A stretch of DNA of 64,000 nt from Cornus controversa (Eukaryota > Streptophyta > Magnoliopsida > Cornales > Cornaceae): the NCBI GenBank assembly GCA_026545225.1, contig CM048845.1:78854533-78918532 (forward strand), given 5' to 3'. A program made the translations under genes and the position numbers. Within the stretch, counting starts at the first letter, position 1. Each line of letters starts with the position of its first letter. Shown one piece after another: positions 1-36,018 of this stretch. The notes under the pieces were generated by a model. The model worked only from the letters and a program-made list of their open reading frames with translations. It did not search any database and was not told the origin of the DNA.

Positions 1-528
1 TCTTTTTTCTTTTCTGTCTTCTGTCCAAATTTGGAGGGATGAAATCATCTCTACCAAACGAAGAAAATTTGCTCCTTCCCTTCTATCTTCTCTCTATCCC
101 TTTTCCTTCATTCCTACCAAACGGAACATCAAAGTTTCCTTTATTATCTCTTAGATAAAACTTTATTACAAAGTTTATCTGACATCCCCTGTCAAAAATT
201 AACCCCTTGTTAAATTACTATTTTTCCCTCATTAAAAGTCTAAAAACTTGTAAACATATCAATTTACATTTTTACCCTCTCCAACATCCCTCTCTCTCTA
301 GAATCGTCTTGAACCCCCCAAACAACCAGGAATAGTCGAGTCTACTCCAAATAGCCAGTGTCGTTCTCCTATGTAGTGAACTCCAACCATGATCGAGCAT
401 GTCCTCCACCATGAAGCAAACTCAACCACCGTCGTCCATTGGCTGTCTATATCTTTGCCATAGAAGACCCACTGCATCAATTAGTCATCGAATCAAACCA
501 ATCCATCATTGTCGCCGATCACATCACC
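1..528. other. Intergenic left flank, no gene seen
   Basis: AT-rich, pyrimidine-rich sequence with only short chance open frames. A stretch near 136-170 (TTATTATCTCTTAGAT followed by AAACTTT) recurs in inverted orientation near 5845-5880, so both may be ends or fragments of the same repeat family. I see no exon or RNA gene. Confidence 0.6.
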
Positions 529-867
529 AATCATACCAGGGCTGGCCCTGAGATTCCAAAAATGCTAAGAGGTCCTAGGCAGACTTTCAAATGGGGGCCC
601 TTTCTACCTAAAGTCTCACTCGTGAATAAATTCTATAGGAGTGCAAATTTTTTATTAAAATGAGACGATAAGCAAATAAAATATATTAATGTTGAAAAAA
701 AAAACCCTGGTCTTGGTGCTTTTATAAATAGCATGATCCAGTTCAGATAAAAAAATTAAAAGAAAATATTCAACACACCTTAGTCACAAAAATCAAAATT
801 GAACTTCATATCAAAGTAAATGTGATCGTCTTGCTTTTTGAGCTGCAAAATTATCAATTAAAGTGCC

Positions 868-3206
868 CTAATCAAGTTTCTCTAACATATCTTTTTCAAT
901 AGATATCATAGCCAATCCATTCAATCTCTCCTGTGACATCATCGACCGTAAGTAAGATTTGATCAACTTCAACTTTGAAAAGCTTTTCTCAGTAGATGCA
1001 ACTGTAACTGGGATAGTCAATAATACTTGATATGTAATCCAAGTATTTGGAAAACAATAATCTAGCCTTTTTATAAAATCCAATACTTCAATTGCCTTTT
1101 TTGTTCCTCTTGGTAAAGCTTCTCTTAAGACTTTTAACTCTGAAAATAATTATATCCCATCTATATCAGAAACCATATTATGTTTTTGGAGATCTTTAAG
1201 GTTGTGACATGAACACTTCAAACTACCATTATCTACGTACTTCAACCTTTCCAAATTAAACAAAATTTCAAAAGAGTCATCATATTGTTGAAATTGTTCA
1301 AATCTACTCTAAAGTGAAGAAAGAGCTTGATCAACTACATATATGAAGTAATTAACTCTAAACGATTCTTCGGCCGATTGTGTGATCTCTTCATTAGCAC
1401 CCTTGTCAAATTGTTTCTTTCTACGAATGACATGTCTTTCACGAAATATAGGTTCAACTTCCATTTTAATTGCAATATCTTTAGCCTCAATCATAGTAGA
1501 TTCAAATCCATTTTCTCTATAAGTTTCAAAAAAAGAAATGAGTCATCTTAAGAGATCTATAGCAACATCAATCCGAATGTCATCTGTTTGCATGATTTTA
1601 CTTACTTTGTTAACATCATTCAATATATCAAACCAAATAACCATGCCAAGCAAGAACTCAAAATTTTCAATTTCATATGTTGCTAAACACTCAGCATTAC
1701 TCTTTGTCTTGGGATCTTTAGTAGTACTTGCAAAGTGAATTAATGCACCTCTTATATCTGGAGCTTGGAATCTTATTACTTTAACACTTTCAACTTGACC
1801 TTCCCAACATGTTTGTGATGGTGCTTTAAGTGTGAAACCTTTAACATTATCTGTGAGAACTTTTCACTACTTTGTAGAAGATGAAAACAATGAATACACA
1901 TGCTGCACAACTCCAAAAAAAGATAAAGCCTTAGAATAAGAGTTTGTCATATCACAAAGTGTAAGGTTAAGACTGTGACAACCACATGATGTGTAGAATG
2001 CTCTAGAATTTATCTATAGTAATCTTTTTGTACACCTTTGTGTTTTCCTTTCATATTAGACCTGTTATCATACCTTTGTCCTCTTACATCACCAATTTCA
2101 AGTTCAAGATATTTCAAAACATCTACAAGTTCACCAAAAAGCCCTTGACCCGATGTATCATCCACTTTTAAAAATTCTAAAAAGAACTCCTCTACATTTA
2201 TTGGACTTGCTGAAACATTCACATATCTTAATATAAGTGACATTTATTTTTCATGACTTGCATCCGGAGTACAATCAAGAATGACTGAAAAGTACTTTGA
2301 TTCTTTAACTCTTTTAATTATTACACCTTTGATCTCATCCGATATCCGAAGAATAAATTCATTTTGAATTTTGTGACTAAGATAATGATAATGAATTTTT
2401 TTCTCTTAAATTCGACGAATATGCTCTTGCATTGTTGGATCAAATTCGACAATCATTTCAATTATGCTTAAAAAGTTTTAATTATTTTCTTCATAAACTT
2501 CTCATTGTCTCCACGAAATGCCAAATTATTTTTAGCAAGATTTTTCACAACAACAATTATTCTCAACAATACTTACCTCTAATGTTCTCTATCTTTGTTG
2601 ATATGTTCTTCCACACTTTTATCAATTGTAGCATTTTTTTCGTAATCTAATTTCCAATTCAATCCAACCTTTCATGTTAACAATGTATTCACTGTTAGTT
2701 TCATGACTTTTAAGTCTGCCACTAAAATTTTTCCAGTCTTTGACTCCTTCATTTGTCAATTGAGTTTTATTTTCATCATGTTTGAATAACTTACAACAAA
2801 AGCAAAAGACCTTGTCTAAAGTACTTGAATAAATTAGTCATTTCCTATCATGCTTTTCACCATTTGACAAGTGCCAAATGTAATATACGAAAGAGAAATG
2901 TCTATTTTTTGAATCTTTAGGAAAATCTTCAAGTTTAGCATCTCTTGTAGGATCTCTTTCAACTAAAAAATCTCTCAATTTTTTATCAATATTTTTCCAA
3001 TTTCCTGGATCATTAATGTTCAAAGGAACATTATCATTCATATTCATATGTTCTTCATCTATCAAATCTTCATGTTCATTCAAATTTTCTTCATTTACCA
3101 AATCTTCATGTTTATTTAAATTTTCTTCTTCTTCATCTAAACTCTCTATTTGTATATTACTCTTAAATAAAAACTTATGAAGAACTCCTTGTTGAGATTG
3201 AATCAA
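868..3206 (-). pseudogene. hAT transposase remnant (TTF zinc finger, DUF4371, dimerisation domain)
   Basis: Read 5' to 3' on the minus strand, the family's domains appear in order. At 3206-2838 is a charged N-terminal region followed by the TTF-type zinc-finger start (DPGNWKNIDKKLRDFLVERD, then RHFSFVYYIWHLSNGEKHDRK). At 2243-2010 is a DUF4371-type RNase H-fold piece ([16 protein letters not shown]). At 1494-1309 is a C-terminal piece (RRKKQFD, SFRVNYFIYVVDQALSSL). At 1083-868 is the hAT dimerisation domain (VASTEKSFSKLKLIKSYLRS). These pieces lie in different frames separated by stops, so no functional transposase is encoded. It is internal to the element at 537-4126 and has no host promoter. 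Confidence 0.85.
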
Positions 3207-3822
3207 TTCTTCTTTTTTCTTTTTTTCATGCCCGATTGATATTTTCTAGTAGACATAATTCAAATATGCACCTATATAATATTTTTATAAGAGAATTTCA
3301 GTATAATAACAAATTAAAATATCAAAGGCCAAAAAAAAAAAAATAACATAGGCTACATGAGAACATATATATATATATATATATATATATAGATCGAGGG
3401 AAACTTTTGAAAGAGACCAAAATTTTAAAAATATACTAAACAGTTTATATCATGTTGTTAGTCTAACTTCTACCACAACCACAAATCAACTAACAGTCCA
3501 ACTTCAAACACTTAATTTCTAAAAAAAAATAATTTAAAACCCTAAATCCCAAATCAAAATATGATCAAACTCTAAAATATAGAACTAGAAAATTAAAAAT
3601 GAGAAAGAAACTTACCTAAACAAATTAGACTTTGGTGAACGGTTGGAATCTTGGATCACAATCTCCAAATGAAAGTTGTTGCCTTGCCAATGCCAGCTTG
3701 CCTGCTGCTACTCGTTGTGAAGATAGAAGAATAAATTAAAAGGAGTTCTGAGAAGGAACAAAGAAGAAAACGCCTAAACCTAGTTACCTAGGACAAATAG
3801 TTAGTAGTAAATTTTTTTTTTA

Positions 3823-3970
3823 AAATGAGGCCCAAACCAGAGTATTGGACTATTATCATTATTTTTTAAATGAGGCACAAACCAGTGTATTGTACTATTA
3901 TCATTATTTTTTAAATGAGGCCCAAACCAGTGTATTGGACTATTATCATTATTTTTTAAATGAGGTCTAG
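3823..3970. repeat. 45-bp tandem repeat, about 3.3 copies, inside the hAT element
   Basis: The word AAATGAGG recurs at 3823, 3868, 3913 and 3958, exactly 45 bp apart. The intervening CCAAACCAG and CTATTATCATTATTTTTT blocks are nearly identical. It lies in the subterminal region of the transposon, upstream of the transposase start. Confidence 0.9.
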
Positions 3971-4134
3971 TTGACTATTTGTTTCTAAATTTTGGCCCAG
4001 ATGTCCTGAGCTATTAGTTACTATTTTTTTTAAATAACATCTAGTGGACTTAGTAAAAATTGGGGGCCCTCAAAAATTAAAAAATTTGGGGGCCCTAGGC
4101 AATTGCCTAGGCCCAAGACGGCCCTGGATCATGC

Positions 4135-6540
4135 CCAATTCTCATCATCAATCTACAACCAAGTGTCACCACTAATTCAACATCAAATCTCATAAATTTG
4201 GGTAAAATCATCACCACCAATTCAATACCAAATCTCACCACCAATTTGGGCAAAATCATCACCACCGATGGCGGTCATCCATAATGCCACGTTGGACAGA
4301 CTTTATAGACTAGGTCCAACATTTCTGATGGAGCAAGAGATGAGGTGGTAGACACTCCAGATGGTGAAGTCAAAGGTGGTAGGTTGCTTTATGGTTGAAG
4401 TGGTACAGACACCCAGCGGACATGGGTCTTCAAATGTGGTGCTTCGATGATGATGGAGATGACTGTTGAAGGTTGAGACGGTGGTGGGTGAAGTTAGTGG
4501 ACGATGGTGTTTCATTGTCGGTGAACAGTACAGGTGTGCTTCGGTGTGGTCCTCGACAAAGGAGATAGCGGTGGTAGAGGACATGGTGGTTCATTGTGGG
4601 TCTTCTGTAGTGACGGGACAGAAGGTGGAGATGGTGTTCGGCGGACATGACCCGAATAGTAACGTTAGTGGTGAGCTTCGTCTGAAATAGCAAAGATTCA
4701 ACAGTGGTGGATCTTTGGTTTTAATGACTTTGGCCATGAAGAGTCGCATTAATACAAATAGGTCAATGCTTGCATCCTGTCGGAGCAAGGTGAACTTTTT
4801 CCTTTGATTGATATGGATCAATAGTATATCAACATCCGTCTAATTATTAAAAAAATAAAAAATGGGTCATACCCATGTTTTATGGTTAATCCAAAACACT
4901 TGATCCAAACTGCATATTTTCTCTCCCCCCCCCCCTCTATCTCGATTGGTTTTCTTCCCTACCTATCTTCCATTTGAAACCCTAATTTTTATCTTTCTTT
5001 TACAGATGAATAATGGTTAAAGGATCACTTCTCTTTTCTCCTCTTTCATGTCTCATTCTTTCCCCCTCCATGAAACCTTAATTCAACCTCAATCCAAACA
5101 AAGCAAAAACAAATTTACAATACCAAACAACAATCTCCACTCTGCAACCATCAAACTCATTATCCCAATTTGCTTATGCTCTTCTTTACTACACTTATTG
5201 CTCAAAGAAAGGGAAAAAAACAAAAGAACATGGAAGCAACCATTAGCTTTCTTCTGGAATGACCATTAGTTTTGTGATTATGCCAACAACTACAGAACAA
5301 CACCATGATTTACAAATCGGTCTTCTTCACCCCGTTATTGCAAAAGCAAGGTTATTTTTCTCTATCTTACTTCTGGGGTTTCTGTGTATTTAAATTTATT
5401 TTTGGTGTTTAGTGAAAATTTAGGGCATTTGTTGCACAAAATATGTAGATTGATCAAAATGAAGATTGGGTAGAAGTAGAGGATGGAGGTTTTGCTGGGC
5501 AGTAGAGAGAAGATGGAGAAGAACGATTTCATAATTCTGGGTTTTAATTTTGAACCGGGTTAACCCATTAAAATGAATAGATCTAATTTTCATTATTTTT
5601 TTTAGATTATTTAATATTTGGATAGGTGTTAAAATACTCTAATCCACGTTAGCTAGCAGGATGAAGTTCATCCTGCTAAGGCAGTACCCAAGGATTGTCT
5701 ATATGCAAATATAAGTGCATAATTGGTTAAAATGGTAATTTAATTACTTCAAAGGTAGTTTCAGCATTTAGAAAGAATTGACACACATGAGGGGTGATTG
5801 AAAATATTTGAACAAACCTCAAAGGAGGATGACTATCATTTTGCAAAAAGTTTCATCTAAGAGATAATAAGGCAAACTTCAGAGTTGGTTAGAGATATTC
5901 ACTCTTATAATTTTATCATTAATTTTTCTTGAGCAGTGTGATTCATTATGGCTAAACAAAGTGATTAAACAATATAAAACATAAGTGAAGTGACCAATAA
6001 ATTAACACATTTATACGAGTCCCTAGTGAGTCATTGATTCTATTAGTATTTATTGCAACTTTTACTGCTTAGCAAGGGAAGTTTTCACTTCAAAATTTTT
6101 CTCATTTTCTTTCTATAGGAATTAAAACCACACTCATCTATGTGCATCCACTCTACATTCTATGTGAAAAGTTGGTTTGATCGCGTACTGGTCTATCTAA
6201 TTTTTTCTTTTTAATTTTTGGCAATTCGTTACCTCAACTTTTTTGCTGCAGAACTTCTATAGTGAATTTGTTGTTTTCATGATAATCTTTATTTGGAGAG
6301 AATAATGTACACATATTTTAAATTTTTGTACATATTTATATATGGATGATAATTATGTGAATTTCCCGAGCTTACTTAAAAAGTTAAAAGCAATCTTGGA
6401 AGTAACCACCATACAAATTAGAAAAAAAGGGTTAAAATTTGAAGTTGTGTTAGGATTGAATAAGGATTTGACAATTACTTAATCGAAATCAAAGAATTAT
6501 TCATACGTTGGCCCTAGTTAAAAAATAATTATATTGGGTT
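4135..6540. other. Intergenic, no gene seen
   Basis: The first kilobase is GGTGGT/ATGGTG-rich and produces overlapping chance frames on both strands (4303-4821) with low-complexity H/T/P- or G/V-rich translations; I do not accept these as genes. The remainder is AT-rich. No splice-bounded exon, RNA gene or complete transposon end was recognised apart from the inverted fragment near 5845-5880. Confidence 0.6.
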
Positions 6541-6679
6541 GTTTAGAACAAACTCAATCGGTCAATCCGATCCGATCCAAACTGATAATTCAAGGATCGG
6601 ATCAAATTGTATTTTCACCAATCCGTAGTCCGCGGATCAGATTAGGTTATCTAATCCGATCCGATATTTTGTCACCCCT
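6541..6679. repeat. hAT-MITE-like terminus
   Basis: GGATC/CCGATCC-rich sequence ends in TTTTGTCACCCCTG, which reads CAGGGGTGACAAAA on the minus strand, a common end of plant non-autonomous hAT elements. I did not find a matching left end or a target duplication. It abuts the start of duplication copy A. Confidence 0.45.
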
Positions 6680-7051
6680 GATCTTTGCAGCCAATTGGCC
6701 TCAGTGGTAATCTTCAAGTTTACGAGTAGTGTCCCTCCTCAAGGTCACAGTGATGATGAACAACATCACTTGGCTCAAGCTCCAAATTTTATTTTTCATA
6801 CAACATTCTATTATCATCACCACCATCTTTATACCTATTTCACCATCAACCGTACCACAAGGTAGGATTTAAGTCCTTATAATTATTATGATCCAGTTGA
6901 AGGGTCCTCCCTTACCTTCTCTCAGTCGCTTGAACTCTTCCATATATAGACTGCCTTATGGGGGTCGAATCAAGGAGATATATTTTTGACACATTTCAAG
7001 TTTGAGTCGAGGACTATGGCATGCTAGCATACCTGATGAGCAAGAAATTGT

Positions 7052-7255
7052 TAAATCATACCGAGGGGAGTATTTTAGAGAGATAAGCTCTATCTTCCTC
7101 CTCTTTTAACTACTCATATGAACTTGGCCACTAAGGATTAATAAAAAAATAATTAAATCATAATGAGGGGAGTGTTCTAAAGAGATAAGCTCTTCCTCCC
7201 CTTTTGACTAATCATATGATTGGCTAATAAGGATTAATAAAACAAATAGTAAGTT
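7052..7255. repeat. About 102-bp tandem duplication within copy A
   Basis: The word TAAATCATA starts at 7052 and again at 7154. The following GAGGGGAGT, GAGATAAGCTC, CATATGA and AAGGATTAATAAAA blocks are repeated in the same order. Copy B has a single version, so this local duplication arose in copy A or was lost in B. Confidence 0.8.
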
Positions 7256-7454
7256 TATAATGAGTTTCAAAAGCAAAACTTTTGTGACATGAGAATGAAT
7301 CAAAATCATCTTCAGTATTTTGTGGTGTATTATAAAGGGCTAAGATCAATTTAGTAGTGGATTTCACTTGTTGGATTGATTTCAATCCTTCACAATGGAT
7401 GGCGAAATACAGGTGCACTGAAAAAGATGCTGGTTCAATTAGGATACCCTATTC

Positions 7455-7782
7455 TGTTAGGATTGCACACACACTATTAGCAATAAAATAGAAAAAAACA
7501 CACACAAATAACATAAGATTTATGTGGTTCGACAAATTACCTATGTCCACGGGCAAAGAATGACTTTCTTTACTTCAATACTTTGGTTACACACTTTTTC
7601 TCTCTTACAATTACTTCTCAACATCACCTCTATTTATAGAGTCTTCAAATTTAATTCCTTGTTGGACAAGAATTACAATTCCTTAGAACCCAAGATAACT
7701 TGAACTAAAAGAATTACTTATTAAAATACAACTATATATGGAAACCTAATTATATTAGAAATTTGAGCCATAATTCCTAACA
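7455..7782 (-). repeat. 3' LTR of the Copia fossil (left copy)
   Basis: The LTR has TGTTAGGA...CCTAACA ends, an internal CTATTTATAGAGTCTTC block shared with the right copy, and target duplication TATTC immediately to its left. The adjacent internal sequence ATCTTCACCTTGGCTCAAAT is shared with the short LTR element at 12712-13975. Confidence 0.9.
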
Positions 7783-8081
7783 ATCTTCACCTTGGCTCAA
7801 ATTCCATTAATGCGCTCCTCCATAACTCCACCTTGACTGAAGATTTCTCCACCTCAAACAAAACACCTTCTTTCTTCTTGTTGTTCTTTGCCATACCATT
7901 ACATTTACCTATTGTGAGCAAACTCCAAGTTCAAATAGTTGAACTTGGAATCTACTCTCACATCACCAAATTGAATTTTTCTTGCTTTTGAAATAAAGGT
8001 TGGGGTTCTTACAATCGTCAAGACTTCTTCATTCTCTTGTCGTTTTTGATTGGATACTCTAATAGATCTCAAAACAGGTTT

Positions 8082-10677
8082 TCATTCTGTCTTTGCAATT
8101 GCTCCACCTAGCATAGTATTTTCTAACAAAACATAGAGGTTGTTGACATTCCTTCCCAAAAGCATAACATGTGGCCCCTTTCTAATCTTCGTTAATCCAT
8201 TCTTCATTTCACACGAACAACCATTGGAATCCAATGCTCTCACAAAAATCATAATCCTTCTGATACTTGGAATATGGCGTACATTCATTAGGATTCTTGC
8301 CAAACCATTAGTTGTCTTGATTTTGATTATTCTAATTCCTATAACATCACAAGAAGCATTATTCCCCATAAATACCTCACCGCCTACAGGTTTGTAAGTA
8401 GCAAACCACTCTTTATGAGGACACACATGAAAGGAAAAAGCAGAATCAAGTATCCACTTCTTAGCCACTTCATTGTCATCAATAATTGATAATGTTTCAT
8501 CATCATCACTTTCTTCTTTCATAGCCTCTACCATAACAACATCAGTAGATGCACTCTCCTTCTTTTCTGGACAATACCACTGAAGATGCCCCTTTCTTCT
8601 ACACTTATAGCATCTTTTTTCTAATAATGGCACAAAACTTCTTGAAGCTCTAAACATTTTATTCTCTTGAGCAATAAGAGCTTGAGCTTGATCATTGTGA
8701 CTCTCTTCATCATTGAACTTTTCATTAGAGAACAAAGCACTTTTAACTTGCTCTATCGAAATGGTATCTCTTCCATAGAGCAAAGTATTAAATAAATGTT
8801 TATGGGTAGAGCGTACCGACATCAACAAAATAATTATTTTATCCTCATCACTCAACTTGACATCAACATTAGATAAATCAAAAATAATCTTATTGAACTC
8901 ACCAAGATGTTCTTGTAAGCTTACCCCTTCTTTTCTCCAAAAAGAATACAACTTTTGCTTCAAGACTAACCGGTTGGTGAGATTCTTCCCCATATATAGA
9001 TTCTCCAATTTCTTCCACATATCTGCTGCTAAAGCTTCTTCTATCGTATCATACACAATATCTTCCGCCAACGTCAATCGAATAGCACTCGTTGATGTTA
9101 TTTTAAAGTGTAAAATAACTCGCAAGTGTACGAATCTATTGAAGTATAGATCGGCAAGAACGAGGTCGAACCCAAGGGAATGCTTTGAGAAGAAAAACTA
9201 ATACAAATTCAAATTAATTTAAAACTAATCTAGTTTAAACAAAAGTTGGTTGATTTGAAAGAGATTAAACTAATATGCAAATAAAATAACACAATTGAAA
9301 TCAAATAGAGAAAATAACTAAGGTTTCGGATTCCACCACCATTAAATCCATGAAGCTTCTAATATCCATTTATTAATCCCAAAATTTAGAGTAGCAATCA
9401 AGAAATCAATCTATTGCTTACTCAAGATTTAACAATAAATCACTATAAAAAATATATTTAAAAGATAGATTTTTCTTCGATTTACTAGTGTAAAATTCTA
9501 AGCATCTAATGTATCCAATTTAATGAAAAACATAAAATTAAAGATTATCACCTTTAAGAAATACAAACCCAAACTTAGATTAATTATAATACTTTCTAAC
9601 TACCACATATACATGATATAGATGGTAAAAGAACTATAAAATAATTAATCACAAAAAGCGAAAATCATAAGCATTTAAATCATACACATGAGAATCAATT
9701 AATGAACAAAAGAACTTCACTTCATTAATGGAGGTTTCCTCCTCAACCCTAGTTGAGGAGTTTAGTTACATATAGTAGAAGAAGAAGATAACAAAATAAT
9801 AAAAGACATAATGAAATAAAATAGATAAAACTTGGATTGTGTCTGTCTTCTCTACTCTGGCCTTTCACTTCTTTTCTCCCCCTCAAAACAGCCTCCAATT
9901 CGCCACTTTATACCCCAAGAGAATACATAAAGTTCTAATCCAATTAGGAGATAAAGACCTAATCTAATTAGGAGATAATTAGGGTTTTTTCGCAGCACTA
10001 AACAGGTGGATTTTTCTGCTGATGTTCAGCCTAAGTTTTGACCCAGTAAAAGTCCGATTCATGAAATTTACGTGAAATACAAAAGTGTCCAGAATCGAAT
10101 TTCGTTCAACTTATTTAAAAATCAAGTCAAATTGACTCTTAGAAATAAGACTTTTGGTCCACTTTCCAAAACGGGATTAAAACTGGATTAAGTGCAGAAT
10201 TAGGCTTTAGGCCCATAACCTCCTTAAGCAGTTATAATTCTTTTGAACCATTTCCTTGGGCTAATTTGAGTTAAGATATGGAATTGAATGGATCCATTTG
10301 ATGTAGGCTTCATATAACCCTCTTGAATGTCTTCTTTAAAAGCTCAAAAATCATGACTTTAACTAAAATAATCATTAAAGCCCTAAAAAGACAGAAAATA
10401 CAAAAATAGAGTAAAATTACAAATAAACTATTACTAAAAGAATAAAATATGCAAATTAAGAGGCTATAATGAGTAACATTCAACGCCGATCACTCGTTGC
10501 CTTCGAGTTAATCTTCCCCCGCTGTTCATCTTCCATATTTTTTGGTTTCAAACCCAAAGCCTCTTTGAGACTATGTTGAATCAGTAAATCCCGCATTTGA
10601 ACTTGGCAAAGATTGAAATTCCTTCTTTCATCAAACTTTGTGACTATGTACTTTCCATCTGTAATAGTTGTCGCCAT
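8082..10677 (-). pseudogene. Copia gag region (fossil), split by an insertion
   Basis: This is the gag part of the fossil, read on the minus strand. It holds an N-terminal gag block (10677-10500), a UBN2/Copia-gag-like helical region, a CCHC zinc knuckle (CYKCRRKGHLQWYC, near 8590) and the beginning of a protease-like stretch. The 1396-bp element at 9095-10490 separates the N-terminal block from the rest. The remainder of pol expected for a Copia element is not seen. It is a decayed remnant inside the element at 7455-11076. Confidence 0.85.
9095..10490. mobile_element. 1.4-kb non-autonomous element inserted in the Copia fossil (MULE-like by TSD)
   Basis: A perfect 9-bp direct repeat CACTCGTTG flanks it (9086-9094 and 10491-10499), and the interrupted gag frame resumes on either side. 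A 9-bp target duplication is typical of Mutator-like elements, but I see no long terminal inverted repeats: the ends read ATGTTATTTTAAAG and, on the minus strand, ATCGGCGTTGAATGTTACTC, sharing only ATGTTA. There is no coding capacity. Class assignment is therefore inference; the insertion boundaries are seen directly. Confidence 0.8.
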
Positions 10678-10692
10678 AACTCTGATACCACT

Positions 10693-11076
10693 TGTTAGGA
10701 TCACACACATACTATTGGCAATAAAATAGAGAAAAAAACATACACACACACACAAATAACATAAGATTTATGTGATTCAGCAAATTACCTATGTCCATGG
10801 GCGAAGAATGACTTTCTTTACTTCAATACTTTGGTTACACACTTTTTCTCTCTCTACTCACCTCTCTCTCTACAATTATCTATCTCTTTCTTCTCTTCAA
10901 CCTCTTTTCTTAACCTCACTTCTATTTATAGAGTCTTCAAATTTAATTCCTTATTAGACAAGAATTACAATTCCTTATAACTCAAGATAACTTGTGCTAA
11001 AAGAATTACCTATTAAAATAAAACTCTATATATGGAAACCTAATTATATTAGGAATTTGAGCCACAATTCCTAACA
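10693..11076 (-). repeat. 5' LTR of the Copia fossil (right copy)
   Basis: It starts TGTTAGGATCACAC and ends TTCCTAACA. The PBS complement lies just left of it and the second copy of target duplication TATTC just right. It is about 56 bp longer than the left LTR because of a CT-rich expansion. Confidence 0.9.
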
Positions 11077-11136
11077 TATTCTTTGCGGTATCTAACATGA
11101 GTCCATCAATCAAAAGTACGTAATTGATCCAAGATA

Positions 11137-11884
11137 CTCCTTCCATCCCAACATAAGTGTCCACCTTTCCATTTTTGACTATTCCAAAATAATTGTCTTA
11201 TTTTAAAATCCAATGCACCATCTTTTTTTTTATATTCCTAATTTACCCTCCATTATGGACCCACCATAGAAAAACTTGAGTTCCCAAAAAGGGTGAATTT
11301 GAGAATTCATCCACTTTTCTTATAATAAAAAAAATATTAAACAATGCACTCTTAGGCTTCATTTGGATAGACACGAGAGAAAAGAAAATAAATGATAACA
11401 TTAGTTATGAGAGAAAAGAAAGGAGAGGAGATGATAATAATAAACTCTATTTGCTTGGATAAATAGAAGAGAAAAGAAAAAAAGGTGATAGTATTCTTGT
11501 TTGGATAAGATAGGGGAGAGAAATGATACCAACCAAATTACTATCATATCCTTTTATATTTATGGGGCATAGGTGGAATAACAATTTTTTCTTTTTAATT
11601 GTTGAGAGTAGTTTTGGAATTATGAAAGTACTACTTAAACACTATCCTTTCCCTCATAATCTTTCTATTTTTTAGATGATAGGATATGGGGGATAAAGAG
11701 GGATAACTATCCCTTCTTATCCCTCCTTATCCTTTCTTTTATTTTAATGATGTCTATCCAAGCACAACATGACCTATCCTCTCATTTCCTCCTTCTCCTT
11801 ATCTTTCCAAATCTCTCAATCCAAACGGAGCTTAAAAAGTTGAGTTCCCAAAAAGGGATTTTTTTTTTTTTGGAAAAGAGGGAG
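11137..11884. mobile_element. Stowaway-like (Tc1/mariner) element with nested MITE
   Basis: The left terminus CTCCTTCCATCCCAACATAA resembles the CTCCCTCCGTCCC terminus of Stowaway. The right terminus reads CTCCCTCTTTTCC on the minus strand. Both are flanked by the dinucleotide TA (11135-11136 and 11885-11886). Copy B has the unoccupied site (AAAATAGTAAACTTCACC near 16028). A Harbinger-type element (11355-11831) is nested inside, and TTGAGTTCCCAAAAAGGG occurs on both sides of that nested insert. Confidence 0.8.
11355..11831. mobile_element. PIF/Harbinger (Tourist-like) MITE nested in Stowaway
   Basis: The ends GGCTTCATTTGGATAG and, on the minus strand, GCTCCGTTTGGATTG are flanked by the 3-bp duplication TTA (11352-11354 and 11832-11834), the hallmark of Harbinger/Tourist elements. 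The body is purine-rich at the left and pyrimidine-rich at the right. A second copy of the same family is at 31561-31912. Confidence 0.82.
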
Positions 11885-12010
11885 TAATAAAATTCACTAA
11901 TTATTACAAGATGGTAGACCTTTACCAAAACACAACATAATATCATTTTATTAGTTACAACATCAGGTTCCATATAACAAAGCACATAATGAACCCTTAT
12001 ATGTTCGTAT

Positions 12011-12045
12011 TTGTGTGTGTGTGTGCGCGCGCGTGTGTGTGTGTA
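12011..12045. repeat. (TG)n/(CG)n microsatellite
   Basis: Alternating TG repeat with an internal GCGCGC block. The equivalent place in copy B (about 16150) has TATGTATGTATATATA instead, so the repeat expanded or diverged after the duplication. Confidence 0.85.
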
Positions 12046-12216
12046 TGAATATAACATACACCCAATACATATATAGATCCAAATTTCTTGTGGGATTATC
12101 ATAGAGTATAGTTGCTCATCAATTTTGAGAAGTGTGATCATATAGTCTAATTAAGGTTAGTTTCTCCAGCTGCACATGATCCACAACATAAATGGTTTAA
12201 TTTAATTTCAACTTGA

Positions 12217-12600
12217 TTAGTAGGGTCCATGATCTCTTGGAGTTATTATTTCTTGTTGTTGGAAATGGAAAATGGGAATGATGATGAGAGTAGGAATGGC
12301 TCCGAGAGTGTCACATAAGCAATGGAAAATGCATTGAATCAGATTTGAGAGCAAACCCAAGTCATACCGAGGGGATATGCATATGAGGACAAGGTATACA
12401 ATCCAAAAATGTGCTTGTGGCAACAAAATTGAGCAAAACAATGTAACAGCCAAGAGATTGGAGAAATCTCCAACTGTGAGACGGATGGGCTCAGTGGTGA
12501 TTGAGACTGCAAGAGGAAGCTTGATGGAAGTAAAGAGGAATAAAGTTAGGAAGAGAATGGAAATATTAGCAACTAAGATGAACTTGCTTTCAATGCGAAC
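12217..12600 (-). pseudogene. Remnant paralogue of the small membrane protein gene at 36019
   Basis: The open frame on the minus strand from about 12600 to 12217 translates to a hydrophobic protein that lines up without gaps with the middle of the 36019-36525 product. FTSIKLPLAVS matches FTSIRIPLTCS, VTLFCSILLPQAHFWIVY matches VSFIASLLFPQAFFWYAY, and LLSNLIQCIFHCL matches WLSNMFKSFLYWL. The frame has no ATG before the first upstream in-frame stop (12601-12603), and the expected N-terminal part (MPWDWDPF-like) is not seen. The short LTR fossil at 12712 lies about 110 bp upstream. It is probably a broken copy, though an unseen upstream exon cannot be excluded. Function is unknown, as for its paralogue. 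Confidence 0.7.
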
Positions 12601-12711
12601 TCAGAAGAGGTGGACCAACACTCACAATTGGAGTTTTTGAGAAAGAAAATGAGGATGTTGAAAAGTGGGGGAATTTCAAACTGGAGGACAATTGGTTATA
12701 ATTATATGTAC

Positions 12712-13975
12712 TGTTGGGGATTAATCATCATTCGTTCGACATAGCGAAAGCATATCATCACATCACAATCATACAAGCATATACGAAGATAACAATCAAA
12801 CACATCCACACACAACACAATATTTTATATGGCTCACCTAACTCTAGGGTTACGTCCATGGAGAAAGATATTTCATTATATTGAGAAGAAAATATATAAC
12901 ACAAGAAAAATATGCCTACCACACACACTCTTTCACTCTCTATTGACATCTTTTCTCTAGAATTACATATACTATTTTCTCTCCTTATAGCACTCACCAA
13001 TCCCTTACATCTTTCCTCTCTCTCAACCTTCTCACTCAACCCTATCTCTATTTATAGAGTCTAAAAACTCACCCTTGTTGCACAAGGATTACAATTCATT
13101 AAAGCACACGATAACTCGCCTAGCAAGAATTACCTATTAAAATACAACTCTAAAATTAAAACTAAATTACAATAAAAATTTGAGACACCATTCTTAACAA
13201 TCTCAACATTGGCTCAAATTCCATTGATGCGCTCATCCATAGCTTCACCTCGAACCAAACTCTATCACATCATCCCCATTGGTGTTCAATTACTCATGCA
13301 TGACAACTCACTAATCAATATATCAATCTTCTTTATATATTCATCTTGCCCTATATTGAAAATGAACATCCTTCGACTTGTCCCAAGACTTGTTCCTTAT
13401 AGACTTCACCATATCATCATCTTCGTGTTATCATTAGCTTTAATTATATCTTCATAACTCTTCACAGTCAACCTTCTGCTCTGACAAACCATTAGCTTGG
13501 ATACCAGTTGTTGGGGATTAATCCCCATTTGTTCAGCACAACAGAAGCATATTATCACATCATAATCATACAAGCATATATGGAGATAACAATCAAACAT
13601 ATTCACACACAACACAATATTTTACATGGTTTACCCAACTTTAGGGTTACGCCCATAAAGAGAATATACAACACACGAAAAACATGCCTACCACACACAT
13701 TCTTTCACTCTATCTTGGCATCTTTCCTCCAAAATTATATATACTCTCTCATTTCCTCATTTTTTGACTCACCAACCCCTTACATATTTTATCTCTCTTT
13801 ACCTTCTCACTCAATCCCATCTCTATTTATAGAGTTTCTAAACTCATTCCTTGTTGCACAAGGATTACAATTCCTTAGAGCCCAAGAGAATTTGTCCTCT
13901 AAAAATTACATATTAAAATACAACTCTAAAAGAGAAACTAAATTATAATGGAAATTTGAGACATAATTCTTGACA
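12712..13975 (-). mobile_element. Short Copia-type LTR element fossil (two LTRs, about 0.3-kb interior)
   Basis: Direct LTRs at 12712-13199 and 13509-13975 start TGTTGGGGATTAATC and end TTCTTAACA or TTCTTGACA. Near-identical 5-bp flanks (TGTAC, TATAC) form the target duplication. A Met-tRNA-type PBS complement (GGATACCAG) precedes the right LTR, so the element is on the minus strand. The interior lacks coding domains and shares GGCTCAAATTCCAT with the element at 7455-11076, suggesting a related, strongly shortened, TRIM-like family member. The LTRs are clearly diverged, so it is old. Confidence 0.88.
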
Positions 13976-14105
13976 TATACTTGATGTACATCTTAGGGGA
14001 ATTGTTTTTTTCCCAATAAGATCAATGTGTTAATCTCATTTTCATGTATTTTAATGTACTTTCCCTAATATTAATTGTCTTATTTTGTTCAAGGGCCATG
14101 CATGG

Positions 14106-14870
14106 TATATATGCTGAGAGCCGAAGGTCTGAATGAGAGAGAGGGGCATGGGTCCCACCACTAGGCATGCGCTTCACCCTTTGAGCATCTTTATTATTTG
14201 TCTAACATTGCATTGCTTACTTGTATTAGTTTTGAGTATTCAAGGAAGGGCAAATTACACCGACCTTCTCTCTGGTTAGAAAAATATACATTGACCTCTT
14301 TTATATTTAGAATAATTACACTTATCTCTTTGCAAATAACGAATGTTAATATCTGTTAATAGAACATATGAAATTACTACTATGTCCTTATTTTAATGAG
14401 TTTTTAACTCAAAAAATATCTGTCTCAAATGTTGTATATGCTCCAAGGGTCTTCTTCTTTCCCACCTCAATTGATCCGATTTTCCCACTTTTACGAGTCT
14501 CATGTGAGTCCATCCACCTCGACTTCGTCTTCTTCCTCAATATTGTGGCCCGATTTGTTTAGTATTAATAAAAAATTCATTACAACTATTATATTACAAC
14601 GCTATAGTTTGTAACTAATTGGTAAATATATACATTATAATAAACTTTTGTGGGGGCATTGATTGTAACATTGTCACTTTTGACACCTTGTGAGATTTGT
14701 TAAAAGTTTACAGTTGTATTTTGATAAGCACGACGTGCGCTTACACAAAATGAAGTGGGATCACTTAAAAGTTCAAAGAGTAACTTTATAATTTAAAAAG
14801 AGGACAATACATGTCCCTTCAAAATTGGAATACTATAAATGAATTAATAAATTGGGATGAGGGAGTAGTG
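14106..14870. other. Spacer between duplication copies, no gene seen
   Basis: AT-rich. It includes a TE-end-like sequence GGGCAAATTACACCGACC near 14249, similar in style to the MULE-MITE ends at 15304 and 56491 but without a visible partner. The sequence just before copy B (GGGATGAGGGAG, then TA, near 14854-14867) resembles one Stowaway terminus with no partner found. Confidence 0.5.
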
Positions 14871-15303
14871 GACCTTTGTAGCCAATTGGCCTCTGTGGCA
14901 ATCTTCAAATTTGGGAGCAATCGACCTCCTCAAACCTCACAGTTATGATGAACATCATCACTTGGTTCAAGCTTCAAATTTCATTTTTCACATAACGCTC
15001 CATTGTTTCCACCACCATCTTTATACCCATTTCATCATCAAACACAAGGTGGGATTTAAGTTATTGTTATTAAGGCAATTGCAACTCGGTATGGGGGCCT
15101 CACTTTTTTTTTTCAGTCGCCTACTTTCCATATATAAGTTATTTTATGGTGGGATCAAATAAAGAGAATGTGTGTTTTACAGTTTGAGTTCGGATCGAGG
15201 GCTCTGGCATGCCCATATACCTGATAAGCTATTTGTTAAATTATACCAAGGGGAGTGTTCTAGAAATATGAGCTCTTACTCCCCTTTTGAATAATTAATT
15301 ATA

Positions 15304-15740
15304 GGAGAAATTACTCTTACCTCCCTTGAGGTTTGACTTAATTACCCTTTAAATAAAACTAGTAAAAAAAGTTTGGTCAACCTCCCCTGAGGTTTGGTTG
15401 ACTTTACTCTGACCACCCTGCCTTTAATTAAATTAAATGTCAGTTAAATAAACAAATTAAAATGCCAAAACTACCATTCTTTTGTAGTAAAATGACAAAA
15501 GAACTTTGGCCACTATTTTAAATTACCATTTTAACCATAACTATTTGGACTAAAATGACCAAATGAACCTTGATGTCTTGTATAAATGTTTTGAATCTAA
15601 GGGCAATATGGTAAATTTATAGTTAGTGTTCACTTTTTTAACAGTTACTAACCCTGAGAGGGGTGTCAAAGTTATTTTTTAAAAACTTTAATGTGAAGGT
15701 AATTAAGTCAAATCTCAAGGGAGGTCAAAGTAATTTACCC
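15304..15740. mobile_element. Mutator-like MITE with perfect 9-bp TSD
   Basis: Terminal inverted repeats of about 43 bp pair across the element: left GGAGAAATTACTCTTACC, right (minus strand) GGGTAAATTACTTTGACC, both continuing TCCCTTGAG and TTTGACTTAATTACC. The flanking direct repeat TTAATTATA is perfect (15295-15303 and 15741-15749). Copy A near 7205-7222 shows the unoccupied site. Confidence 0.9.
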
Positions 15741-16423
15741 TTAATTATATGATCGACCACTAAGGATCAATAAAACAAATACCAAGTTTATAATGAGTTT
15801 CAGAAATAGAACTTGGGTGACATAAGAATGAGCAAAAATCTTCTTGACCAACCTATATACCAAGTGTACCAAAGAAAACTAAGATCAATCCAGTAGTGGG
15901 TCTCATGAGTTGATCTCAACTCTCTCTAGTGCACTGCGAAATACAAGTGCACTAGAGAGGACATTGGTTCCATAATGATACCTTCATCTAACACGAGTCC
16001 ATCAATTAATCAAGTAATTGAACCAAAATAGTAAACTTCACCAATTATTACAAGATGACAGACCTTTACAAAAACACTAACATAATATCATTTTATTAGT
16101 TACATCAGGTTCCATACTACAAAGCACATAAAAAACCCTTGTATGTTCATATTTTTATGTATGTATATATATGAATATAACATACACCCAATAATTGAAG
16201 TTAGGCTATGCTTGGTACGCAATAATGAAATGAAATGCATGTGGGAATGGAATGGAATGGTCATTCTCATTCTACTGTTTGGTTGCAAAAATGAAAATAT
16301 GTAGGAATAGAATGAAGTTCAAATTGAATTATCCAAAATACCCTTCTTTGTGACGAATAAATTAAACTAACAAAATAACATTCTTCTATAAATTTTTTAA
16401 AAAGAAATAGTGGTGTTGGTTGA

Positions 16424-16749
16424 AGGCGGCGGCAGTAGTGGTGAAAGGTGGTGGAGGTGTTGGTGGAAGGTGGCAACAGTGGTGGTGGTGGAAGGCAACA
16501 ATGGTGTAGGTGGTTGTGGTGGAAGACGGTGATGGTGGTGGAAGGCAATGGATGTGGTGGTGGTGGAAGTTGGTGGCGGTGGAAGACGATGATGGCGACT
16601 GTAGTGGTGGAATGCGACGATAGCGGTGACAATGATGGTGGAAGAAGGCGGTGATGGTGATGGTGGTGGTGGAAGGCAGTGGAGGTGGTGGTGGCGGTGG
16701 CGGTGGTGGTGATGGTGGTGGTGAAAGGCGGTAGTGGTGTAGATGGTGG
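16424..16749. repeat. Degenerate (GGN)n minisatellite, left part
   Basis: GGTGGT, GGTGGAAGGC and GATGGTGG units recur irregularly. The same kind of tract resumes at 17442-17670 on the other side of the nested hAT MITE, so it was one tract of about 550 bp before that insertion. Confidence 0.85.
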
Positions 16750-17441
16750 TAGGGGTGGGACTTGGGTGGGACAAACCCGAGCAACTCGAGGCCCGCCCGA
16801 AAATTTCACGGACATGGATAAGGTATTTGAGACATGGGACTGGGACTGGGTTTAAAATTTATAACTCAAATTTATTTTGAACGGGATTTGGGTAAATATT
16901 TTTCAACTTGAGTAACCCGAAGAACCCTAAATACAAAAAAAAGTTTATAATTATTATATATTCAAGGTGATATGCTGATTAGATAAAATAAAGTTAACTT
17001 AGATTAGTGTCATGGATATTCACCTTTTGACAAGCTTGCTTTAAAAATTCAAAGTAAAAAAATTATCTTAATTGAATTTTAATTAAGGAAACAAAATAAT
17101 AAAAAATATAAGATTTTGAATTCTTTCCAAATTCTGAATTTTATAGTCACAAAAGTTTTAAATATTTGTCATAAGATCATATTACACAATTTGGTTGATT
17201 TTGTTATAAGTGATTTTATTTCATGTCAAGTTTAGATAGTTATATATTTTATTTTTTTTGTAATATTTATTTATTAGTGGTTTATTAAAATTTGGGATGA
17301 CCCGAGAAACCCATAAAACCTGTGAGATAAGATGGGAGTTGAAATGCGACAGATTTCTCGGGACTTGGACTTGGCGTGGGATGAGGTGCTAAAACCTTGA
17401 GTTTGGCATGGATGTGGCCCACCCAACAAGTCCCACCCCTA
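16750..17441. mobile_element. Non-autonomous hAT element inserted in the GGN tract
   Basis: Terminal inverted repeat TAGGGGTGGGACTTG is present at both ends (the right one on the minus strand) and flanked by a perfect 8-bp duplication GATGGTGG (16742-16749 and 17442-17449). The subterminal regions are GGGAC/ACCCGA-rich. There is no coding capacity. Confidence 0.9.
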
Positions 17442-17670
17442 GATGGTGGCAATGATGGAAGACGACGGTAGTGGTGGTGGTGTATATGGTGGTGGTGGAA
17501 AGTGGCGGCGATGGTGGTGGAAGGCGGCGATGGTGATGGTGGAAGGTGGTGGCGGTGGTGATGGTGGAAGGCAACGGCGACAGCGGTGGTGGTGGTGGAA
17601 GGCGACGATGATGGTGGCGATGGTGGAAGGTAGTGGAGGTGGAGGTGGTGATGTGGTGAAGGGTTTATTG
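17442..17670. repeat. Degenerate (GGN)n minisatellite, right part
   Basis: Continuation of the tract at 16424-16749 beyond the nested hAT MITE, with the same GGTGGTGG, GGCGATGG and GATGGTGG units. Confidence 0.85.
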
Positions 17671-17880
17671 GAAACATTTATTTTTTTTTAATCTTAAAAA
17701 TGAAATGGTCATTCCATAGGTTTAACTATGAAATGAATTTTCCTTCTCAGAAATGAATTTTCATTACAAGGGAATGACCATTCTAACATTAAAATCTATA
17801 CTAAATAAAGAAACGATCCGAATTGGTATTCCATTTCATTCCATGCTTAAGTATCAAGCGCAACATTAATGTGTTTTTTA

Positions 17881-17881
<1 letters not shown>

Positions 17882-17914
<33 letters not shown>
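17882..17914. repeat. (TA)n microsatellite
   Basis: Uninterrupted TA dinucleotide run just right of the Harbinger-like element. Confidence 0.95.
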
Positions 17915-17917
<3 letters not shown>

Positions 17918-18205
17918 GTTGGTTTAAGGCTCCTATTTGTTTGATTAGTTCATTTTGTCACTGAATACTTCACTAATGAAAGCGACTTACAATCGTCTTT
18001 TTTCCTGTAATTATGAACTTTCATATGTGTGGGTGAGAACTTCAAAGGGCAAAAGAGAACGAATTGTTTTTTTCGATAAGATTCAACGTTCTAATCACAT
18101 TTTCATGTATTTTAATATAATTTCATTAATATTAAGTGTCTAACTTTTTCTTTTTGAGTAAAAGAAAATAATGGTCTTATTTTGTTCGGGGCCATGCACA
18201 TTGCA

Positions 18206-20039: not shown

Positions 20040-21476
20040 AAGGAATACATCATAAATTTCATCTTCTTTGTTGATATTCAACAAACATTTCTGTGCTAGT
20101 GCGTCTCTTTGAGTCCATTCATTTGTTGTCCGGATTGTCCTAATACAATCTGTATTAGTTATAGGGATTGCGCCAGCATGGACATCAATTTCCTATTCAT
20201 CAACTTCCACATCATCACTATAATCACTAGATTGTCTTGCTAATTCAGTTTACATCTCAGCTAATAATGGGTCATTTGGCTTGTCAACTTGTATGAATTT
20301 GTGGAGGATGGCACATGCACTAATGATCTTGACTTGTGTTTCGATTTCAAAAAACAATGCGGTCGTTGAGATAGCCCAAATCCAAATGCTCTTTCAATCA
20401 CATTTCTAGCAATTGAATGTCTAAGATTAAATAGCTCCTTGTAAGTTCTTGGGTTGTTCCTGCTTGTTGATCACTCATTAAAGTGATAACGCGTACCTCT
20501 ATATGGAGCCAAAAATCCTGGGGCATTTGCTTACAACGCATCAACAAGATAATATTTTCCTACAATGTAAAGCTAAATTGTCAATATTTCATTGTAGACT
20601 AATATATTATTATTTACTTTAATTCATTCTAAAAAATACACATACCAGTTACCACAGCTAATGGATCTAGTCTCCCTAGGTGCATTTCACAAAACCTTAA
20701 CATCGGCAGCCGATCCTTCCCAACCACCAGGTAAAACATAAACAAATTTCAAGTCACGAGAACAAGCTCCTAAGACATTTGTTGCAACAAAATTCTTCCT
20801 GTTTCAGTACCTTCCTTGTTCTTCAAGTGGAACAGTTACAGGGACATGTTCCATTTAGTGCTCCAAGACAGTCCTATCATAAATAGGAGTGTCAATACAA
20901 TCTAGTATTATTTATAAACAAGTATCACCTAAGTACTAATAACTAAGATATATACCTGAAACCAAGCCCATTTCTCTGCTTCAAAATCTTCGTCTTCAAT
21001 TTCCAATTGGACTAAATAGTCTCTGCTTAATTTGATCACTGCTCTAAGCACTGCATCAAATGCCTACGTACTGTCTCCCCCGAACCCAAACGCACAAACT
21101 GGAAATTTTTCACCCGATTCTTCATATTATGGGCAAGGATGTATAAAAACATTGCAACTGCTTCTTCAACACAAACATGCATCGTATCACGAAACCCTAC
21201 CTTCACTCTCAAAATCATGCATAAATTTTCAAAGGTTTGCTTGCTAAGGCGTAATTGTTCAATGCAAGTTCTCTCATTCCCATAATAAAGACAGTGTAAA
21301 TATAATTCTCTTGCCCTTTTAAAATCTTGCGAGGGCTCCTTGACCATATGCTTCTCATGCCACCACACAGCTGCAACTACTGCCGTAACTACATAAAAAC
21401 CGAACATGTACTTCCTTTTTTTACTTCTCTCATTTTCATCAATATTAGATGTATGAACACCTAAATAGTTTTCCAT
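20040..21476 (-). pseudogene. PIF/Harbinger (HARBI1-like) transposase remnant
   Basis: Read on the minus strand, 21476-21036 encodes the N-terminal helical domain of plant HARBI1-like nucleases (CIEQLRLSKQTFENLCMILR, then VEEAVAMFLYILAHNMKNR and GSGETVRRHL). Downstream pieces in shifted frames correspond to the DDE nuclease: a GxLNGTHVPVTVPLEEQGRY-like stretch near 20875-20800, then [18 protein letters not shown]-like near 20755-20700, PGFLAPYRGTRYHFNE near 20525-20475, and the conserved RTYKELFNLRHSIARNVIER near 20450-20390. A C-terminal tail ends near 20060. Stops and frame changes separate the pieces, so it is inactive. The element's right end may be at 24482; the left end was not found. 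Confidence 0.85.
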
Positions 21477-25592: not shown

Positions 25593-27758
25593 TTAATCAA
25601 TGCCAACCCACCGCCTAAATGCCCTAACATGCTCAAGCCTCTTGCTTTGAGCCTCATTTCTAGCTTCAGATGCTTTTAAGCTCCTGTAGAGATCCTTGTG
25701 AAACTTTAGGAACTCACTTTTATACATCAACTTGTCAGTGAAAATTCCATGCTCCTTCATGTAACCAATAATTTCCATCACCCTCTCAAAATAACCACCA
25801 CGAAGAAAATTCAATAGCAAGAACTCGGACAAATCCCTGTTAACCACAAAATTGCCATTCTCCATATTCCTCTTAATATCCCCCCACAAGATCGTGATTT
25901 CGCGATACATTTCCAAAGAAGAATATCCAAAAACCATACTGAAAAAAGTTTGCACCGTGGGCTGGATTTGCATCTCTTGCATTCTTCGGTATGTCTTCAA
26001 AGCATCTGCTATCATTTTGGCCTTCCAGAAGAAATAGATAGAAGAATTGAGTTCGTACACCACAGAAGGCACTGATTTCTCTTCTTCTCTCATCTCCCGA
26101 GTGATAGACTCAGCCATATCTGATTTGCCAATTGAAGTTATTGCTTTTGAAGTCAATGTGCTTTTATCTTCAATCTTTGAAAGATATGTTGAGACAACCA
26201 TCTCATCCGACATATCTACAACCAAACCAGCTTTCTTAATTTGTTTTAGCAGTGCCTCTGCTTCCCTAAACATCTTTCCCTTGTAATATGCTGTAAACAG
26301 TAATGCATATGAACTAGCACCCACAGGAGCCCCTGCCAGTTCCATGTCATCCAAAATGTCATGGGCAGTCTCCAGCCACCCCAAATGAATGCAAGCATCA
26401 ATCACATCAGAACACAAACTGTCTGTTTCTACTGAACACGACTTCTTTTGGACAGTACTTAAAAGCTTTGACAGCTCACTAATCCTCCCACATCTTTTGT
26501 ACTGAATGATGAGCTTGGCCAGTGCTTTGTTGCTAAGGACAAGTTTCCCATTCTTAAGCAGGACAAATCCCTGTTTACTTTCCAATTTGAGCACAGAATC
26601 CTTCTGCAGTAGCTCAGGTAAAATCTGCATTTTCAACCCTGTTTTGAGATTGCGAGATCCAATAGGAACAAGGCAAGGCTTCTGCGAGTCCCTTCCACCC
26701 TTTTGAGCTGCAAGAGACTCCTGACTTCTATACATATCCAATATAAGTCCAGCAGCAGCATCAATATCATTAAATTTGAAATGTAAGCTCAGCAAACTAT
26801 CATAAAACTGCTGATAGCGACAAACCAAAGGAAGTGAGACTTGATCAATATGGTCTTTAAATTTTTTTAAATCATCCCTCTGACCATTCATCTCGTGGAT
26901 CTGGGCAATAATAACAATAGTATGCACATCAGCTACAACCCCTATTTGTGCCATCAACTCTATAATTTGTTGGCCCTTAAAAGATGATCTAAACCTCACA
27001 CAAGCATCAAGAACAAGGTTGAAGAGCATCGTATCAGGTTTTATCAGCTTTTTAGACATGCCTTTGTTTGCACTTAAACTGTGAAAACAATTACAAATCT
27101 CAACTAAGATGTTTGATGCAAGGTATGTCCCAATATCTGTCTTCACCATATGCAGAATTACCATCCCTAAAATATTCAATGAGGGTAAGCTCTCTTTCTC
27201 TAGCATCATTCGGAGAATTATGGATGCAGGAACAGGCATTTGAGATCTCGCCAAGGAGAGGGAGAGTTTAGTCAGGGAGTCAGACCGAAGTAAATCCAAC
27301 TTCTCTTTGTGAATTAATAGAACTAAATCGCATGCCCTTTGAAGCCAGCGGGGCTCAGATGAGTAGGACAACTCAGTGATCAACTCACCAATGAGAGAGT
27401 GGTTAGGAAAACCATACAATCTTTTGAAATCATTAAAAGTTTCCCATGCTTCATCCACTTGATGATCCTTCAAAGCAACTTCAAGTTTTTTCAACAAAAC
27501 TGTGTGAGAGGATACTTCCCAACATATTCTTTCTGGATTGATACTTGTGGAGAAATATCGAAGAGGGGGATTCTGATACTTTTTATTGCATAGGCCCGAT
27601 ACTGGAAGCTTTCTGAAATTGTAGATAAGAACGAATTCCCTGTCATAGATTGATCTTAAGGCAGTCTTTTGGATAAATGGAGCCGCGCGAACAACTGATG
27701 AATAGCTCTTGATGAAGCAGGCACATAACAGGATAGCCTTTGTCACTGATTGCGCCAT
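25593..27758 (-). CDS. Pentatricopeptide repeat protein, probably organelle-targeted
   Basis: A single uninterrupted 721-residue frame starting at ATG 27758 and ending TGA or equivalent at 25593, intronless like most plant PPR genes. The N-terminus (MAQSVTKAILLCACFIKSYS, then RR/S-rich and few acidic residues) looks like a mitochondrial or plastid transit peptide. Degenerate PPR helices are visible around residues 240-310 (KPDTMLFNLVLDACVRFR), 445-520 (SSYALLFTAYYKGKMFREAE) and 575-650 (ADALKTYRRMQEMQIQPTVQ). The conserved WEVSSHTVLLKKLEVALKDH and EAWETFNDFKRLYGFPNHSL blocks recall the Arabidopsis At4g17616/At1g03100 group. It has no E, DYW or SMR tail, so it is P-class. P-class PPR proteins bind organellar RNA and affect splicing, stability or translation; the target cannot be read from sequence. 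A 5' leader exon with intron probably lies upstream (29251 and above). Confidence 0.93.
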   Translation of the reverse strand: MAQSVTKAILLCACFIKSYSSVVRAAPFIQKTALRSIYDREFVLIYNFRKLPVSGLCNKKYQNPPLRYFSTSINPERICWEVSSHTVLLKKLEVALKDHQVDEAWETFNDFKRLYGFPNHSLIGELITELSYSSEPRWLQRACDLVLLIHKEKLDLLRSDSLTKLSLSLARSQMPVPASIILRMMLEKESLPSLNILGMVILHMVKTDIGTYLASNILVEICNCFHSLSANKGMSKKLIKPDTMLFNLVLDACVRFRSSFKGQQIIELMAQIGVVADVHTIVIIAQIHEMNGQRDDLKKFKDHIDQVSLPLVCRYQQFYDSLLSLHFKFNDIDAAAGLILDMYRSQESLAAQKGGRDSQKPCLVPIGSRNLKTGLKMQILPELLQKDSVLKLESKQGFVLLKNGKLVLSNKALAKLIIQYKRCGRISELSKLLSTVQKKSCSVETDSLCSDVIDACIHLGWLETAHDILDDMELAGAPVGASSYALLFTAYYKGKMFREAEALLKQIKKAGLVVDMSDEMVVSTYLSKIEDKSTLTSKAITSIGKSDMAESITREMREEEKSVPSVVYELNSSIYFFWKAKMIADALKTYRRMQEMQIQPTVQTFFSMVFGYSSLEMYREITILWGDIKRNMENGNFVVNRDLSEFLLLNFLRGGYFERVMEIIGYMKEHGIFTDKLMYKSEFLKFHKDLYRSLKASEARNEAQSKRLEHVRAFRRWVGID

Positions 27759-35945: not shown

Positions 35946-36018
35946 GTTAGACAATGGTTCAAGCATTATCAACTAAGTCATTACACTCTCCTGATTCTGC
36001 AAGAAAACCTAGGTGAGG

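Follow-up and report, generated by a model that had tools for sequence, protein, structure and literature searches.

Introduction

Three described systems come close to the locus reported below. PIF/Harbinger elements in Medicago were studied with RESites (Related to Empty Sites, the strategy of Le et al.; PMC2213677). At maize p1/p2 a tandem duplication of about 2.75 million years ago was followed by nested retroelement insertions 1.4-0.2 million years ago (PMC3014980), and REANNOTATE orders and dates nested repeats, with nesting providing the relative order and pairs of long terminal repeats (LTRs) the ages (PMC2672092). Here we describe a stretch of 64,000 nucleotides (C1:78854533-78918532, hereafter the window) within a 771.7-Mb genome, in which two neighboring copies, A and B, very probably arose through direct tandem duplication of low-copy intergenic DNA and then received transposon insertions independently of each other.

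The locus shares with the RESites work that an element-free paralogous sequence documents an insertion, and differs in that adjacent copies control each other and that several element classes are covered at one place (PMC2213677). As in maize, duplication came first and nested insertions later; there, however, studied genes and alleles are involved, whereas the unit described here is decayed and intergenic (PMC3014980). Nesting is used for order and LTR pairs for age just as in REANNOTATE, but the tandem copy also orders elements that are not nested (PMC2672092).

Two direct copies of a decayed intergenic unit

BLAST of the window against itself returned four pairs of segments shared by the two copies: 6680-7107 with 14871-15288 (72.8% identity, E 6.7e-60), 7209-7448 with 15742-15982 (70.7%, E 3e-26), 11885-12067 with 16029-16193 (79.3%, E 7e-41) and 13999-14086 with 18061-18147 (83.1%, E 1.5e-17). 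All of them are direct and collinear, and they begin exactly at 6680 and 14871, 8,191 bp apart, the two positions from which an earlier note on this DNA had read direct copies with ordered blocks. Once the inserts are removed, the alignment of A with B runs unbroken through the sites of the Copia element, the Stowaway element and the miniature inverted-repeat transposable element (MITE) described below. The duplication is real and lies far beyond chance. The shared blocks are as follows, all on the plus strand.

6681-7449, plus: copy A block 1 (self-BLAST, insert-free alignment)
11082-11133, plus: copy A block 2a, between Copia and Stowaway (insert-free alignment)
11887-12067, plus: copy A block 2b, the least diverged block (Kimura two-parameter distance, K2P, 0.139 over block 2)
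13999-14104, plus: copy A block 3, right end (self-BLAST; the only other genome match listed for it is B)
14765-14870, plus: copy B left part, with its counterpart in A left of the hAT-type element (match in fetched locus L059)
14871-15303, plus: copy B block 1a (self-BLAST; 14982-15221 resembles an old dispersed repeat)
15741-16193, plus: copy B blocks 1b and 2 (genome search, insert-free alignment)
18061-18200, plus: copy B block 3, right end (self-BLAST)

Within block 1 of A, 7042-7143 and 7144-7264 form a local tandem duplication that has a single counterpart in B. We take the window, from its gene and transposon content, to be plant DNA.

Position 6680, put forward earlier as the boundary of unit A, turned out to be the right end of a large hAT-type element; the homology resumes beyond it, outside the window.

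1-6680, no strand assigned, transposase pieces on the minus strand: hAT-type element, right part (8-bp duplication, domain, genome matches)
14872-14879, plus: unoccupied B site of this element, reading ACCTTTGT (joined-flank alignment)

The whole element measures 7,177 bp (C1:78854036-78861212), 497 bp of which lie left of the window. An exact duplication of 8 bp, ATCTTTGC, borders it on both sides (L059 9496-9503 and window 6681-6688). When the flanks of the element are joined, they align seamlessly with B. In addition, L059 9406-9502, just left of the window, matches window 14765-14878 (70%, E 4.6e-11) with a score of 284, against a maximum of 167 among 1,000 shuffles. Unit B therefore starts at or before 14765. 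Window DNA left of A scored against the spacer at a level reached by 3 of 200 shuffles; the real continuation lay beyond the hAT-type element. Still further left, copy A carries a 76-bp tandem array at L059 8966-9328, outside the A/B homology.

The identity of the element is indicated by the hAT dimerization domain PF05699 (E 4.3e-18) in the open reading frame 868-1149 inside it, together with a match to DUF4371 in 2013-2243 that stays below the curated cut-off. Its ends are loosely inverted, with 8 of the first 14 bases agreeing by eye, while the automatic alignment showed no terminal inverted repeats. A genome search with the right end, in which 40 of 588 candidates were scored, gave 43 matches other than itself; 21 stop at 6677-6690, 22 stop earlier and none runs beyond, which fixes the right end independently of the duplication. 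In all four fetched relatives, which were chosen from the better matches, sequence from the left end region is separated from that of the right end region by no more than a few hundred bases; both hence belong to one element. These relatives begin inside the element, and the exact left terminus rests on the 8-bp duplication together with the alignment to B. The long interior that bears the domain may be the element's own or a later nested insertion.

No A/B homology was found to the right of both copies, and 50 kb of fetched flanking DNA held no additional unit except A's own left continuation. The Rfam search gave zero matches at gathering thresholds, and the tRNA search none. Nothing found points to a functional role of the A/B arrangement as such; the unit is decayed DNA next to a gene family that duplicates in tandem.

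Insertions and their unoccupied sites

Beyond the hAT-type element, the copies contain the following insertions. The class names of the MITEs, the Harbinger-like element and the element with the 9-bp duplication in Copia follow from end motifs and duplication lengths and not from a library match.

7455-11076, minus: short gag-bearing Copia-type LTR element in A, with a TATTC duplication and a nested insertion
9095-10490, no strand assigned: 1,396-bp element nested in Copia, with the 9-bp duplication CACTCGTTG, class uncertain
11136-11884, no strand assigned: Stowaway-like MITE in A, with a TA duplication and a nested insertion
11355-11831, no strand assigned: Tourist-like (PIF/Harbinger) element nested in Stowaway, with a TTA duplication
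12712-13975, minus: short LTR element in A (LTRs 12713-13199 and 13510-13975)
15304-15740, no strand assigned: Mutator-like MITE in B, with the 9-bp duplication TTAATTATA
7208-7216, plus: unoccupied A site of this MITE (alignment with the MITE removed)
16204-17865, no strand assigned: Harbinger-like element in B, with a TTA duplication and a GGT-rich interior
16750-17441, no strand assigned: hAT-like element nested in the Harbinger-like element, with TAGGGGTGGGACTTG inverted ends and 8-bp GATGGTGG flanks

The insert-free alignment bears out the statement of the earlier note that B preserves the empty sites of A's Copia and Stowaway elements and A that of B's MITE. The insertion list given there missed the largest, the hAT-type element, as well as the three nested ones. 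Absence of the insert from the partner copy, with a single copy of the target there, was found for Copia, Stowaway, MITE and hAT. The empty site of Stowaway lies at 16029-16030. That of Copia, at about 15980-15986, falls within a length difference (a 10-nt gap in the alignment, 11 nt by exact boundaries) and is consequently good rather than letter-perfect. The copies are otherwise collinear, and each therefore serves as the unoccupied-site control for the other. No A/B homology was detected in the stretch from block 2 to block 3; the short LTR and Harbinger-like elements are located within or next to it, and the partner copy therefore preserves no empty site for either.

The Copia-type element contains the domains gag_2 and Pol_BBD. 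Its short layout recurs in all seven fetched relatives, and it may be of the TR-GAG-like kind, in which LTRs surround gag and pol is lacking. The 1,396-bp element is missing at the same point in all seven relatives and, judged by the length of its duplication, may be Mutator-like. Relatives of the Tourist-like element occur at window 31561-31893 (76%) and L061 7690-8182 (69%), and a relative of B's MITE in L059 (87.6% over 315 bp). The short LTR element has no clean duplication (its flanks end in TGTAC and begin with TATAC), and its LTR is related to that of Copia. The 8-bp flanks of the nested hAT-like element are weak evidence since GATGGTGG occurs 11 times in the surrounding GGT-rich tract. 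Next to copy B, an open frame at 21036-21476 on the minus strand has no Pfam match; it looks like the start of a Harbinger-type transposase.

Divergence and order of events

The earlier note had proposed a comparison of the divergence of the copies with that of the Copia LTR pair, and this comparison was carried out. K2P amounts to 0.286 (0.247-0.330) for A and B overall, 0.085 (0.054-0.120) for the Copia LTR pair, slightly raised by an alignment extending three columns past the LTR, and 0.196 (0.153-0.246) for the short LTR pair. The Copia pair is less diverged than the copies (p 1.6e-10), and it is well supported that the duplication preceded Copia. LTR elements are not expected to excise cleanly, and for this reason the empty site in B backs the same order. 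The DNA elements could in principle have been excised from the other copy rather than inserted; no duplicated target is present at their empty sites, and insertion appears the better account. Substitution rates between 6.5e-9 and 1.3e-8 per site per year would place the duplication about 11-22 and Copia about 3-6.5 million years ago, figures that indicate scale only.

Low-copy intergenic DNA, in A also including a small-gene fragment, would on this reading have been duplicated in direct tandem, possibly by ordinary unequal exchange or misrepair. Copy A would then have gained the hAT-type element, the short gag-bearing Copia, Stowaway and probably the short LTR element, with Copia later struck by the 1.4-kb element and Stowaway by the Tourist-like element. 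Copy B would have gained the Mutator-like MITE and probably the Harbinger-like element, the latter in turn struck by a hAT-like element. The claim that the order of events can be read from the locus is supported for the duplication and the independent insertions that followed; it is not supported for the order as a whole, since the sites of the short LTR and Harbinger-like elements are not preserved and the divergence of the copies is uneven.

Evidence against a single tandem duplication and alternative explanations

Several observations weigh against a tandem duplication followed by insertions. The divergence of A and B is uneven, with K2P values of 0.325, 0.139 and 0.388 for blocks 1, 2 and 3, which weakens a single duplication date. 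Block 2 is significantly less diverged than either of its neighbors (p 8e-5 against block 1, p 2e-4 against block 3). Taken alone, its divergence does not significantly exceed that of the Copia LTR pair (p 0.10), nor does it differ significantly from that of the short LTR pair (0.139 versus 0.196, p 0.17). The segment between blocks 2 and 3 lacks A/B homology: A 12068-12711 plus 13976-13998 scored below the shuffle mean against B 16194-16202 plus 17873-18060, and its score was reached by 160 of 200 shuffles. Within the unit, two patches, 14982-15221 and 15905-15961, have dispersed relatives. Finally, diverged copies escape the genome search, in which very common words are skipped; the piece in L059, detected by local comparison, was absent from its list.

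The patches raise the question whether A and B arose as separate insertions of a single dispersed repeat. The first has relatives at five other loci (68-87% over 52-217 bp), and the second has counterparts in a tandem array on C1 and at a locus on C4. The matches to these internal patches, however, never reach the ends of the unit, among the genome matches listed, those of any length to the rest of the shared sequence, blocks 2 and 3 among it, are long at A and B alone, and the continuation beyond the hAT-type element is part of the unit as well. We consider this origin very improbable. A search with B 15742-16199 gave seven matches: B itself, A in two parts and four short stretches (41-63 bp); B 14871-15295 gave nine, consisting of B, A in two parts and six of 52-217 bp at the five loci mentioned. 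That both B queries recovered the diverged partner (71-73%) provides a built-in check of sensitivity. With A 11885-12711 there were 34 matches; besides A and B, 31 lie within a TG-rich microsatellite and one is a 79-bp piece of coding sequence on C2. A 13976-14870 yielded 28: itself, block 3 of B, 25 within window 14236-14444 and one of 48 bp, at 14765-14812, that matches C2. The uniqueness of block 3 rests on this A-side query. For the head of A, with a query running into Copia, a score was computed for 40 of 2,164 candidates, and every one of the 45 matches other than itself starts at window position 7446 or higher, in Copia. Among the genome matches listed, no third place with the unit or its ends was found, and the evidence that there is no third copy is strong, not absolute. 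The possibility raised in the earlier note, that the shared blocks are copies of a dispersed repeat with the same ends, was accordingly not borne out by these matches; a dispersed repeat was rejected as an account of the whole unit and retained for the two internal patches. A piece of another dispersed family lies in the gap between the copies.

14236-14444, no strand assigned: piece of a dispersed repeat family (25 of 28 matches, at query 261-469)

L055 2161-4313 (C1:53.043 Mb) is an array of units of about 97 bp that has a 57-bp motif in common with window 15905-15961, and the old dispersed repeat includes, at L018 1309-1560, tandem copies of a unit of about 126 bp that are 99% identical.

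The low divergence of block 2 (11089-12067 minus Stowaway, with 15985-16193), less than half that of the flanking blocks, and its position adjoining a gene fragment allow the tentative suggestion that it is a selected conserved non-coding element, such as an old 3' flank, or else a tract that gene conversion between A and B has homogenized.

12217-12600, minus: 5'-truncated gene fragment of a small membrane-like protein family (37% amino acid identity to the frame below)
36013-36525, plus: open frame of the same uncharacterized family (genome relatives)

Pfam offered no family for either of them. The genome search with frame 36013-36525 gave 16 matches, including itself and the fragment in A, 11 of which lie in a loose array at C2:93479931-93813491, two with internal stops; none fell in copy B. 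Together with the uneven block divergences, the fragment and the C2 array could be taken to mean that the blocks are what is left of a longer tandem array of small-protein genes from which intervening copies were deleted, so that A and B were not necessarily neighbors at birth. We regard this as unlikely: apart from the genes, ten family loci with 1.5-kb flanks resemble the A/B blocks only in simple repeats and in short stretches no longer than 31 bp, and B has no match to the gene. Elsewhere in the window, 25593-27758 on the minus strand is an open frame of 721 amino acids with pentatricopeptide-repeat matches.

A further alternative concerns the short LTR element, which might predate the duplication and have been lost from B along with the gene fragment. 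B indeed has no counterpart of 12068-13998, the site is not preserved, and the divergence of the LTR pair is not lower than that of block 2. It is, on the other hand, below that of the copies overall (p 0.007) and below that of block 1 (p 0.0009), and we judge an earlier insertion possible though doubtful, and favor its arrival after the tandem duplication.

Significance

The case is biologically ordinary and unusually legible, and the reading of paralogous empty sites that it relies on is an established method. A single locus offers four insertions, of four element types, each with its empty site naturally present as a control. It also illustrates that a transposon sitting exactly on the edge of a duplication can mask the extent of that duplication. 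While knowledge of transposons is left unchanged, the locus is a useful worked test case for software that annotates insertions.

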